Positions 32,601 through 38,600 of a DNA stretch of 64,000 nt are shown piece by piece. Source of the stretch: Protonemura montana. Its lineage: Eukaryota; Arthropoda; Insecta; Plecoptera; Nemouridae. Below the pieces are notes generated by a model. The model was given only the letters and a program-made list of their open reading frames with translations. It was not told the origin of the DNA and ran no database searches. Both the position numbers and the translations under genes were made by a program. Location of the stretch: positions 30,180,133-30,244,132 of the forward strand of contig OX387602.1 of assembly GCA_947568835.1 (NCBI GenBank), given 5' to 3'. Numbering within the stretch: the first letter of the stretch is position 1; every line of letters starts with the position of its first letter.

Positions 32601-35600
32601 CTTCACTCTATGCAAGATCACACGAAGGACTGTCATTTCCAGGGTTAGATGGGTTACAGTTTGTGGTATACCATACTTAAATCATTGTTGTGGTGACAAA
32701 GGAAAGAAAGAGCAAGTGAGCCCACCAGAGAAGAAAATTGTTAGGATGAAATCTTATTTAAATTGCAAACGCTTGCAATGCGCGGTGTATTTTATAATTA
32801 ACAACACTACAACCGTCTCAAAAATTGATGCTCAAACGCGGACTCGAACCCGTTTGCAATTTAAATCAGATTTCATCCTATTACATCAACGAATCCAACG
32901 TCAAATTGGAGTTACTCGAGATTGACAGGTTGTGACGTGATAAAGCGTCACTAGAATCAGAGTGACTGTGAGTATTCATAGCCTCATGGTTCTACTCCTT
33001 GGAGAACTGTCATTCTCATCAAATATACTAAAATCGTCTCAAAAAGCCAGTGTCCAAGTAGCTCAATGGTTCAGAGCAACACCCGCGAAAGGTGGAGATC
33101 GGGGTTCGAGTCCGCGAAAATATATATGTAATATATATATAAAATTATATATGCAACACGATATAAGTACGTGGAGTTTATTCTCGAGCTTATGTGACAC
33201 GTACCGTGATGCTCTTCTACCAATTTGCAGGCTGGTCAGCGAGATGACCGTGGAAGAGAACATCTTGAAGAAAGCGAACCAGAAGCGGATGCTGGGCGAC
33301 TTGGCCATCGAGGGCGGGAACTTCACCACCGCGTACTTCAAGAGCACAACCATCCAGGACCTGTTCCACGTTGACGCCACCGAGAACACAGCCCAGCGCA
33401 TGGCCGAGGTAGGATTTCAGGAATTGAATCGGAATATTTAATATCTCTTCTGTGTCCAAACTTCTATTTTCATACCTGTACGAATTATTCGTCTCTTTTA
33501 AACATCTTTCCATGCGTTTCAAGATTCGTTGCAATCCTCTAGTTGTTAGTACAGGCAATATCAAGGTGCAAGTGCTTTAAGAATACCATGTTTCTTAACT
33601 CCATTTGCAGCAACTCTAACTCGAGAGCGCTAAAATGGCAAGTAGTTGTTTGTGTAGAAACACCGTGGGCAGCTTGAACTCGTAATAAAAGAGTTATTAA
33701 AATTTTTAGTTTTTAAACTCGTAACTTCTTCACCTAACCTTTGCATTAGTTAAAAAAAAATTAAATAACTGGGTTTTTTAATGCTTAGTAAAATAAAAAA
33801 TTCTCACGACGTTTTGCAACTTATGCCCTTGACTTCTTCAAGGGTGACATTTCTTTGATAACAAAAGAAACACCACAACATAATCTTGTCTAGGCACCCT
33901 AAATGCATCGAACTAACAAACTAACGTAAATAATTCAAAGAACACGTTTCACACTTTTCATTGAAAACTACTCCACAAAATTGGTTTATAGAATAAACCA
34001 ATTAAATATGTGCTAGCATCCAGGGTAAGAAATTTGCATCAGAATTTGCGTCACATCAACTCAAATATAATACTGAGACATTTTCAATTGCCGCAGCGTG
34101 GGATTGAGCTGCAAAATTATCTTGATGCTCTTGAAGCGAAGCCGTGACCCATGGTTTTCTCAGCACAAGAAGGCTCCAGGTTTAATGAAAACTATTTGAA
34201 CTGGGTTTTGAATGCTAAGTAAAGGGCTACTAAATTTCCCGACGTTTCGCAACATATACTAGTTACTTCTTCAGAGGTTTGAGCAGTCCTGACAATTTTC
34301 CGATAACAAAAGAACCACATAAAATTATAACAATTATCTAGTTCAAGCTTCCTAAATGCATCTAAACAAAATAATCAGGGTCAATAACTTAAAAACTAAC
34401 GTATTATGTATTTTCTGAAATAAGATCTCGAACACATTGGCGTTTTTTACTAACTAATTATGTGTATGGAAAATACATAACTGAAGAAGTAACTAGTATA
34501 TGTTGCGAAACGTCGGGAAATTTAGTAGCCCTTTACTTAGCATTCAAAACCCAGTTGAAATAGTTTTTCTTATAAATAGTGCTAAGGATAAATCAAGTAG
34601 ACATGAGTCTAAAAACCATCATAAAGGCTCCAGGTTGTCTTTGTTTTCACACTATCATTCCCTCGTGCGCAGGTCCTAGACCGCGGAGAGCCTGCTCCGC
34701 CGGCGGAGGAACGGGCTGCGCTGGGTGCGCTGGAAACGGCGCTGGCAGCGGCGGAGGACGACTCGGACGTGCAGGCGGCTCGCACTGCGATGGCTGAGGC
34801 CAGCGCTGACCTGGCAGAGTTTGACGAGAACATCCCGCTAGAGGACGCGGAGGCAGCCGCCGCCGAACCCGAGATCAGCAAGGCTGAGCAAGAGGTCAAC
34901 AACCTCATACAGTTGGTGAGTTAACTGTTTGATTGATTTCAACATGGTGCATGGAAGGTTTGACAAGATGAGAATAAATAAAGTGAGAGAAGTTGGTGTT
35001 GCCATAATTTCATTGGGGCTCTGCGTAGCTGTTCGCTAATTGGCTGATTGGCTGATTGGCTGATTGGCTGATTGGCTGTTGGCTGATTGGCTGATTGGCT
35101 GTTGGCTGATTGGCTGATTGGCTGTTGGCTGATTGGCTGTTGCCAGGCAAATAACTGATTAACGGGCTGTTTGATTCTTAATTAACCTTTGAATAACTGG
35201 CGCAAGTCTTCTGCTGCTGATGCTTGTCAACCTTAAGGGAGAACAAACTAGCATAGCTGTATTAGGATGAAATCTTGATTTAAATTGTAAACGCTTGCAA
35301 TGCGCGGGGTATTTTATTATTAACAACACTATAACCGTCTCAAAAATTGGAGAACTGTCATTCTCATCAAATACACTAGAATCGTCTTAAAAAGCCAGTG
35401 TCCAGATAGCTCAATGGTTCAGAGCAACACACGCGAAAGGTGGAGATCGGGGTTCGAGTCCGCGTTTGGGCATCGATTTTTGAGACGGTTATAGTGTTGT
35501 TAATAATAAAAAACTAACATAGCTCTTAAACTGATGCGACCGTTGACTTGACTCTGCCCGCCAGCTGAGCCCCGTGGAACGCTACGCCATGAAGTTCATC

Positions 35601-38600
35601 GAGAGCACCGAGGCAGCGTGGTCCGCGGAGCAGCTTGCAGCCGCCGAGGCCGAGATCGAGCAGCAGAAGCGCGAGTGGGAGATCGGCCGAGCGAAGGCGG
35701 CGCAAGACGAGGCGGATCGTTGCGCCGAGCTTGCGGATGACGGAGACATGCTGACGTACTCGCGGCGCGATGCACGAACACAGGTTAATAGCCCGGAAGC
35801 TGTCGCGCCGAAACCCGGTCGCGCCGCTCCCAAACGCAAGATGCCGCGGCGGGCGAGTGCGCCCGCACGAGACTCCTCCTCCTCCTCCGAGGAGTCGTCC
35901 TCGGCCGAGTCGCCAGACGAGTCGGGTTCGGAAGACGGCAGCCGATTGGACGAGGTGGTCAAATGCCGGCCGGCGACAAAGGCGGCAGCCAACCACGTGA
36001 AGGATGCGTTGCCGAGGACGCGATCGCGCGGCGCCGTCAGCATCGATCTGTGGACGTTGGACTCGGGACCGGCGGCTCCCGTCGCCACTGTGGTCGCGAG
36101 ACCCACGCGGGGCCGACCTCCCCGCGGTGGTAGGCGGGGCGCCGTGGGACGGCCCCGGAGGATCCAACCTCCGAAAGTTGACGACGAAATCGACGCTCGG
36201 AAAACCAACGGAAGGCGGACTCGACGATCCAGCGTAGAAGCGAACGGGCCGACGGCGTGAATGCCATGCTGTCGTTTTGTCGTTTGCGCAATCTGTGATC
36301 TTTATTCGTGTGGATCGTCCGGTCGAACTTGCATTTCAAAAGAAGGCTGATGAGGCTGCAATTATGAAATAATCACTTTCTGTTCATAGCTTCATCATAA
36401 TTTTACTATTTATTACTTGAAATCGAATTAATTAGTTACGAAAGTAGGTTCAATGGCACCGAACTGAAAGATATTGGCGAAATTGTGGTGTTGTCAAGAA
36501 TCCACCTTTCCTCATTGAAACAATGAGTTATAATTGCAATTAGCTAGCTGGATCTAGCGGGTTTCCCTGCCTTTTTATCGACCAGGCTAGCTCTTCGAGT
36601 GGAGGGCAGTTTTAGTTGTCGTCTCAGTAACTTCGGGTTACTTGTTTTTACACGCCTGTGAGCTCGAAGAAAGCGTTTTGTCTGGAACGCTCCCCCCTAC
36701 GTGTTCTGGACCAAGGTTGACACTAGATAGTATTTTTTGCAAACGAATTTGCTTCCGCCATCGATTGTTTTAGGCTAGATCTGAAATGCCAGCTGGCCGC
36801 CGTTTAACAGGCATCTACCGTGATCGTTTCTCTTCTTTTTTTTTTTATTGTCGGAAACGACGAAGTTCGGCGACCGAACGGCATCGAAGTTGGATCTAGC
36901 AAGACTTGTATTATGTTTCTCTTGTTTACGGTTGCGACGATCAACCGTGAATGTTAATTGTTGTGGCACATTGCCGCCAGGTTACTTTGGCATGTGACAA
37001 TGCTGTATATGTGATACACTAACATATATAGAGCATTAGTCATCTATATACCATTTATTTAGAGACTGAGGTAAAATAAAAGCATTTTCCTTGCTCCGGT
37101 GTGTTACTTACTTCTTGGTTGCTGCTCCAAATTTTCTATATCAATGGTTGTGCCCTGTTTGGTGTCAGTCTCCGAGCTCTGTGTGCTTATATTTTGCAAC
37201 GGGTGTTACGATCAGTTTGGTGTGGCACAGGCTTGTAAAGACTATCACCCTGCATTCGCCGTTTTCTGTCCCGGTCGAAACCTCTCGGCTAGTGACAAGG
37301 CGGTGAATGCGCAGGTGGAACAAGTTAAGCCCTTGTGGACCAAAAATGTGGCACCAAACCGGAGGCCTGCCTTTGCCATTCCAAATTTTGGAGACGCTCT
37401 ACCAAGATATAAGCATGCATGTGCGAGCAAGGAGATTGCATCGAATAATGGCCAACTGATGATGATCCTCTTCACAGGTCTGGGTCTCTGACAACGCGCA
37501 AGAACAGATGCCGGTGAGTTACAATCGCACTCTGCTTTGGGGTTCGGGCAAATATTTTCATTTAATTAATGCATCTTTTCGAGTATCCTAAGTCACCTAG
37601 CTTGACATCGAACTGCCGTTAGTTATAAATTATAATGACTGGCACACTTGCACCGGGAAGAGAAATAATTTGTAACATTTTACTCGTGGCTAGAGGGATT
37701 GCTAACTATTATTCAACATATGGATTCCTACAACTACCTACGCATTCTGGTTACCTGCAACATCAGTAATTATCAAAAAAACTACGACTTTAGTTTCTCG
37801 TTTCTTGAAATGCAGTATGTCTAAAAATGCAGAAATAAACTAGGTCTTCGTTGTGGGGAAAACAATGTAGTGGGTATATTACTTGGCCTTTTTGTGGTAA
37901 ACATATTTTTTGCAAGATTTTTTTTTATTTACTGTTTTTGTCAATAATATTTTAATACCATTGCAAAAATGATTCAATATAAATTTTATGAATATGGAAC
38001 AGAACTTTCCAATTGATACGTGGAAAATATATACATCCTACTGTTGCTCTGTAGTCAAAAATATATGTACTTATAACGTTGGGATTTGAAAAGTGGGAAA
38101 AACGTATTCCTGCTAATCACAAAAGGGTCAAGTAACAACAATAAGCAATGCTTTCTGTGTCCGTGACTGCAACCTCCGGCTTGCCGCGCATGTGTGCATT
38201 GTGGCCGCGTTTGAGCGCAATGATCTTGCAGATGTGGTGCCCTCCAACGCCTCCCCGTGATGACAATGACGTCTACATTGATCAGCCGATGTTCTTCTCA
38301 TATGAACAAGCCACGATGACAGAGTCGCAGTTGCCCCCAGTCTACGTCAAGCGAGAGCGGAAGCGCCGAGCCGAAGCGCTACCTGCGCTAGAACGCGATG
38401 GTAAATGTCGTTTGTGATCTGGGCTGGAGCAACCTTGGGGGGATCGGGACTCATGATTCCTGTAGAAATCTTGTAGGCAGTCGCATCTGCAGGGGCATTC
38501 TCAATCGTCAGTAGGATTTTTGTGATCCTTTTGTAAATAGAGAATATATTGTGTATATAATATATAATAGACACTAGAATCGTCTCAAAAAGCCAGTGTC

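Follow-up and report, generated by a model that had tools for sequence, protein, structure and literature searches.

A single Domino gene with a predicted fork between a SANT-bearing and an AT-hook-like C-terminus at a weak 5' splice site

In Drosophila, one domino gene gives rise to two proteins, DOM-A and DOM-B, which have 2008 residues in common, including the HSA domain and the ATPase, and then differ, with a SANT domain in the longer form and none in the shorter. According to the accessible text of PMC7239659, the incorporation of H2A.V falls to DOM-B, and a NuA4-like acetyltransferase complex is defined by DOM-A; for the domino orthologues of the bee, jewel wasp, ant, flour beetle and house spider, two or more isoforms that differ in their C-termini are reported there as well. 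Here we describe a Domino locus on the + strand of a 64,000-nucleotide stretch of contig OX387602.1 (hereafter the window, to which coordinates refer unless another contig is named). In this locus, an exon encoding the last part common to two predicted forms, which we call the block exon, is followed by a weak 5' splice site and by an open frame that would supply an alternative C-terminus. We put at roughly three in four the probability that the block exon becomes a composite terminal exon through intronic polyadenylation, yielding a DOM-B-like short form whose RNA would end near position 37100.

Because two C-terminal forms have been published for Drosophila and five other arthropods, the locus is a further case of a known arrangement. 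The novelty implied by the first-pass annotation of this DNA is therefore largely taken up by that earlier work, with the AT-hook-like tail as a modest addition. The tail of fly DOM-B is at least 489 residues long (the split falls after residue 2008 and an antigen extends to residue 2497) and, as described in the available part of PMC7239659, 'folds in no predictable manner', whereas the tail here has 158 residues with AT-hook-like cores. The same source attributes the fly forms to alternative splicing, whereas the anatomy here is that of a composite terminal exon. In the literature searched, with most subscription papers outside its reach, we saw neither AT-hooks in a short Domino form nor intronic polyadenylation of domino: the term 'at-hook' occurs 0 times in the accessible text of PMC7239659 and 'polyadenyl' 0 times in that of PMC6837581, and neither topic appears in that of PMC8414691.

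Matches to EP400_N, HSA, SNF2 and Helicase_C, together with similarity to SRCAP and EP400, identify the gene that carries the fork as Domino, in agreement with the first-pass annotation. The layout is that of the Domino/SWR1 class, with the HSA domain ahead of the ATPase, a long insertion between the SNF2 lobes, and SRCAP, SWR1 and EP400 as closest relatives. About 6.8 kilobases (kb) separate the lobes (24859 to 31671), and the open, GC-rich presumed exons between them are joined provisionally, as is the gene model of 29 introns as a whole, in which splice sites were placed by consensus and some exon boundaries are approximate. A GC-AG type donor, CAG|GCAAGT at 18435, appears to close the first HSA exon. 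The 3' part of the Domino region contains an assembly gap of 200 N at 44910-45109.

A search with the ATPase across the whole 258-Mb assembly returned 46 rows, 9 in the window and 37 elsewhere, with none of the 37 above 63% identity; all four rows obtained with the long-form extension, at E up to 0.01, lie inside the window. HSA matches occur at three places in the genome, namely Domino and two others. We considered each of the other two as a second SRCAP or EP400 gene and rejected this, the SNF2 stretch 2 to 4 kb from each HSA match being most similar to BRG1/SNF2L2 in the PDB. No second SRCAP/EP400-type gene was found in the assembly by this exon-by-exon six-frame search, which can miss small exons or fragments. 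The + strand locus is best explained, on sequence grounds, as the only domino gene of an animal of crustacean or insect type, a pancrustacean. The two other HSA loci (C2:22795600-22801900 and C16:10046200-10050200) carry Brahma/BRG1-type ATPases; one such gene might be expected in this group.

The two sides of the fork resemble different vertebrate enzymes. A query comprising the second half of Helicase_C, the post-helicase exon, the block and the tail matched PDB sequences of SRCAP at 255 bits, SWR1 at 172.6, EP400 at 115 and INO80 at 103.5, and an N-terminal query bearing the HSA domain scored 168.8 bits with SRCAP and 145.4 with EP400. When the post-helicase exon and block were instead joined to the long-form extension, EP400 chains were the exclusive matches at E up to 1; they comprised four distinct sequences and reached 311 bits at best, with an alignment unbroken across the joined exon junctions. 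Judged by these scores, the sequence ahead of the fork is more similar to SRCAP, and the long-form extension resembles EP400. The SRCAP versus EP400 ranking covers the HSA region and the late helicase-to-block stretch, and the preference for SRCAP is partly due to diverged helicase motifs in EP400 itself, visible in the alignments.

Human EP400 accordingly shares with this locus the EP400_N-like exon and the extension with its SANT region and differs in its late helicase motifs, which here are SRCAP-like; human SRCAP provides the best PDB match for both the HSA region and the late helicase-to-block stretch. An EP400-like C-terminal half with a SANT region is what a DOM-A or EP400-type product would contain, although by Pfam Myb alone the SANT region is weak (E 0.0074, under the cut-off). 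On the other branch, an in-frame stop at 36258-36260 follows the shared block without any SANT region, as in a DOM-B-type form. The fork lies where SANT and SANT-less forms would part, as had been proposed. The further proposal, that one locus may supply both an EP400-like and an SRCAP-like enzyme, gains from the single gene, its SRCAP-like shared part and its EP400-like extension, but not from the tail, which shows no homology to that of SRCAP.

The anatomy of the fork bears on how the two forms might be made. The block exon, behind an acceptor AG at 35563-35564, runs from base 35565 to base 35783 in phase 0 at both ends; phase, homology and splice sites all uphold the exon start and the donor position (35784) originally given. 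The donor had been called good, which is wrong: under an approximate consensus matrix it is the third lowest of 27 gene-model donors (the boundary at 24196, which has no GT, was left out of the ranking). It opens the longest of the 29 introns (35784-37477; 1694 nucleotides (nt), next 1681), which is also the sole one among the seven introns of at least 1000 nt to lack repeat coverage within the window, as do 13 shorter introns. Against the genome this intron matches itself alone, whereas 121 rows, its own among them, were obtained with the one intron used as a control. Its sole AATAAA is the one at 37075 that the first-pass annotation had pointed out.

A weak 5' splice site combined with a large intron holding a poly(A) signal characterizes composite terminal exons. 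With the weak donor, the length of the intron, its freedom from repeats and the poly(A) signal, the anatomy fits a contest between U1 at 35784 and cleavage near 37100. Intronic polyadenylation of the IgM/CstF-77 type, as presented in the accessible text of PMC3708835, likewise combines a large intron and a weak 5' splice site with a poly(A) site inside the intron, but the short CstF-77 RNA has no apparent protein, whereas here both products are proposed to be full enzymes. The weak donor and intronic AATAAA could in themselves suffice for some RNA arising by ordinary, low-level intron retention or premature cleavage and serving no function. We consider it very improbable that the read-through is nothing else, since this would leave unexplained both a long GC-rich open frame that ends at a stop and the role published for fly DOM-B (PMC7239659, in the part accessible).

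Polyadenylation signals are also a source of doubt about intronic polyadenylation at this site. AATAAA is common in the gene, with 30 occurrences in the 29 introns, three of which have a GU-rich element downstream; two of these three overlap at 34973. There, in the previous intron, AATAAATAAA with a GU-rich element stands at 34973-34982, 58 nt past the donor of exon 34673-34915, and this rival signal stands behind a stronger donor than that at 35784. The AATAAATAAA site is a possible second early poly(A) site, use of which would remove the block exon. Two repeats were observed nearby. A high-copy element at about 34178-34626 (at least 121 rows, the query itself included) has two ends that hit identical copies in the genome but in opposite orientation, resembling an inverted-repeat element of the miniature inverted-repeat transposable element (MITE) kind, and a short tandem repeat of TTGGCTGA/TTGGCTG units lies at about 35040-35142 in the intron ahead of the block exon.

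Past the GT at 35784, the frame of the block exon remains open for another 158 codons before a TGA; the 159 codons first counted include the stop, but the frame is open as described, and the tail is indeed GC-rich and basic (GC 0.69, net charge +13). The 474 nt past this donor reach a GC content of 0.69, against at most 0.50 past the 26 other donors. GC in the provisional model is 0.61 for the other exons and 0.39 for the other introns, in which the richest 150-nt stretch has 0.58. The GC-rich stretch passes through the donor and falls at the stop: the best single change point lies after base 36257 (2-log-likelihood interval 36251-36289; range 35784-37477). This coincidence is helpful, not decisive, because a stop is soon expected in any frame once GC-rich sequence ends.

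The tail is probably coding. The contrary explanation is that it is a GC-rich intronic element, for example a regulatory, CpG-rich one, that is open by chance, in which case the long form alone would be made here and the short form elsewhere or never. Several results lean that way and weigh against a coding tail. Dinucleotide shuffles leave a frame of this length open with P = 0.088, and 2 of the 5 other frames across the tail are likewise free of stops. Codon preference favours the tail frame weakly, the observed score being reached in 134 of 2000 null sets in a first test and in 60 of 1000 in a second, and an antisense frame outscores the sense frame in the first test (0.174 vs 0.140) and is near equal in the second (-0.332 vs -0.327). 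The two codon tests did not single out the frame of the tail; the second clearly picks the true frame of the neighbouring block (0.062 vs -0.275 for the next). In addition, the block and tail alone matched neither SRCAP nor EP400 among PDB sequences at E up to 10, with three chance matches. The observed-to-expected CpG ratio is 1.37 in the tail and 1.06 in other exons; it is, however, similar in the block exon (1.36). We regard a non-coding tail as unlikely, since its GC content is unlike that of other introns, is continuous with the exon and ends at an in-frame stop, and since a fork at such a place is the arthropod pattern described in the accessible text of PMC7239659.

The tail could also be part of an alternative exon that does not terminate the protein, for instance through a donor at 36129 (score 1.5, phase 1) spliced to the acceptor at 39625, also in phase 1. 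That donor is weak, the splice would bypass two exons that encode sequence conserved with EP400, and the GC-rich stretch continues to the stop at 36258; such an exon seems to us highly unlikely. The tail is expected from its composition to be disordered. It gave weak matches far under the cut-off in Pfam and none in NCBIfam, and in its own genome it matched itself and one other sequence weakly (E 0.54).

Near its end the tail carries the two AT-hook-like cores listed in Table 1, whose frequencies in shuffled tails apply to patterns picked post hoc, with the motif already known. The first is an RGRP core with basic flanks, as an AT-hook demands. Pfam AT_hook has no match in the tail at E up to 10, the motif being very short and weak hits being dropped by the filters. 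The label 'AT-hook-like' is fair for this sequence. These cores had been likened to those of vertebrate SRCAP, and both motifs are present where described, but homology to the SRCAP tail was not found: the SRCAP and Domino tails gave no significant alignment, with stretches there at -15.5 and -3.7 bits and the main alignment fading at SRCAP residue 2406. Human SRCAP continues for about 800 residues after 2407 (3230 in total), none significantly aligned with the tail here.

In SRCAP, Arg2329 lies in exon 33 and Gln2407 in the final exon 34, and truncations there are predicted to remove the AT-hook motif (PMC4412025, accessible text). The block aligns from SRCAP residue 2309, with Arg2329 inside it and the final exon 34 beginning soon after, a suggestive indication that the block corresponds to SRCAP exon 33. 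One could go further and propose that the fork is ancestral to animals, as one gene with an early AT-hook end or a late SANT end at the junction that is now SRCAP exon 33/34; after duplication, vertebrate SRCAP would have kept the early end and EP400 the late one, and the tail here would be a shrunken relic of the SRCAP AT-hook exon. We hold this extension to be rather doubtful.

We propose two fates for the pre-mRNA once the shared HSA, ATPase and post-helicase block have been transcribed. Use of the donor at 35784 would join the block to exon 37478-37513 and the EP400-like SANT half, giving a long DOM-A-like form that, by analogy with Drosophila, would be expected to scaffold the Tip60/NuA4 acetyltransferase. 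If the donor is bypassed, cleavage and polyadenylation near 37100 would make the block exon a composite terminal exon, and the protein would gain the 158-residue basic tail with its two AT-hook-like cores; such a DOM-B-like form without SANT would be expected, again from the fly, to exchange H2A.Z. We infer the RNA end, the translation of the tail and its contact with DNA, and the division of labour is carried over from Drosophila. Overall, the observation made in the first pass is confirmed, and its interpretation is partly supported.

Table 1 Features of the Domino locus (positions in the window)
Feature	Position	Strand	Evidence or remark
Open frame holding EP400_N-like exon	15857..16519 (exon about 15875-16487)	+	Pfam EP400_N E 2.9e-10; splice sites by consensus
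HSA-domain exons, approximate boundaries	18206..19828	+	Pfam HSA (PF07529) E 7.4e-22, joined exon pieces
SNF2 N-terminal ATPase lobe exons, approximate boundaries	22388..24859	+	Pfam SNF2-rel_dom E 2.9e-88, joined exon pieces
Helicase_C lobe exons	31671..33408	+	Pfam Helicase_C E 8.5e-22; second half within SRCAP match
Shared post-helicase exon	34673..34915	+	Within alignment to SRCAP 2116-2406
Shared block exon, last part common to both predicted forms	35565..35783	+	Aligns with EP400 and, from residue 2309 on, with SRCAP, within longer queries
Weak 5' splice site GTTAAT (CAG|GTTAAT), predicted fork of long and short forms	35784..35789 (GT at 35784-35785)	+	Score 1.03
Putative short-form tail, 158 codons and stop	35784..36260	+	Open frame; net charge +13; serine/acidic run; AT-hook-like end; GC 0.686
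RGRPPRG, AT-hook-like core 1	36108..36128	+	Frequency in 20000 shuffled tails: [RK]GRPP[RK] 0.001, RGRP 0.03
GRPRR, AT-hook-like core 2	36147..36161	+	Frequency of two GRP-basic cores in 20000 shuffled tails: 0.0024
Presumed 3' untranslated region of short form, end inferred	36261..37098	+	No repeat match in window or genome
AATAAA poly(A) signal	37075..37080	+	GTGTGTT 18 nt downstream
Long-form exon, 36 nt	37478..37513	+	Phase 0 both sides; donor CCG|GTGAGT; aligns with EP400 in joined query
Further long-form exons, EP400-like SANT region	38232..41400 (about 38232-38400, 39625-39866, 40368-40630, 41160-41400)	+	EP400 chains, best 311 bits

Other open frames flank Domino in the window. Upstream, on the other strand, one at 12700-13485 (-) belongs to the Rad51 family and one at 11275-11844 (-) has a CCCH zinc finger. 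Downstream, + strand open frames at 49502-55648 have MORN, ankyrin and weak MYND matches, and we take them to be an ANKMY1-like gene.

Elsewhere in the assembly, the mitochondrial contig (C34; 15,885 bases) gave 24 ARAGORN transfer RNA (tRNA) calls, two of which were set aside as likely false (Leu-aag inside cox1, and Trp-cca). COX1 was found there by Pfam, and nd2 and cox2 were recognised by eye. On the minus strand the order is I -Q M [nd2] W -C -Y [cox1] L(UUR) [cox2] K D ... G ... A R N S E -F ... -H ... T -P ... S ... -L ... -V; this order, with tRNA-Leu(UUR) between cox1 and cox2, is the pancrustacean ground pattern and suggests that the animal belongs to Pancrustacea. A COX1 copy on a contig of nuclear size (C4:5760925-5762262), with a further piece nearby, has the same score as that on the mitochondrial contig (C34:3504-4841) and represents either mitochondrial DNA recently copied into the nucleus or a mistake of the assembly.

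The locus extends the arrangement of one gene for two enzymes to another pancrustacean and places the proposed switch, in which a poly(A) site competes with a weak donor, at exact coordinates. Conservation of the AT-hook-like tail, if it holds, would point to a role for the otherwise featureless DOM-B tail, that of holding the exchange enzyme on AT-rich or linker DNA, and the origin of the SRCAP/EP400 pair would become testable through 3' ends across animals. Should the fork prove ancestral, human SRCAP and EP400 would each represent one of the alternative 3' ends of a single ancient gene.

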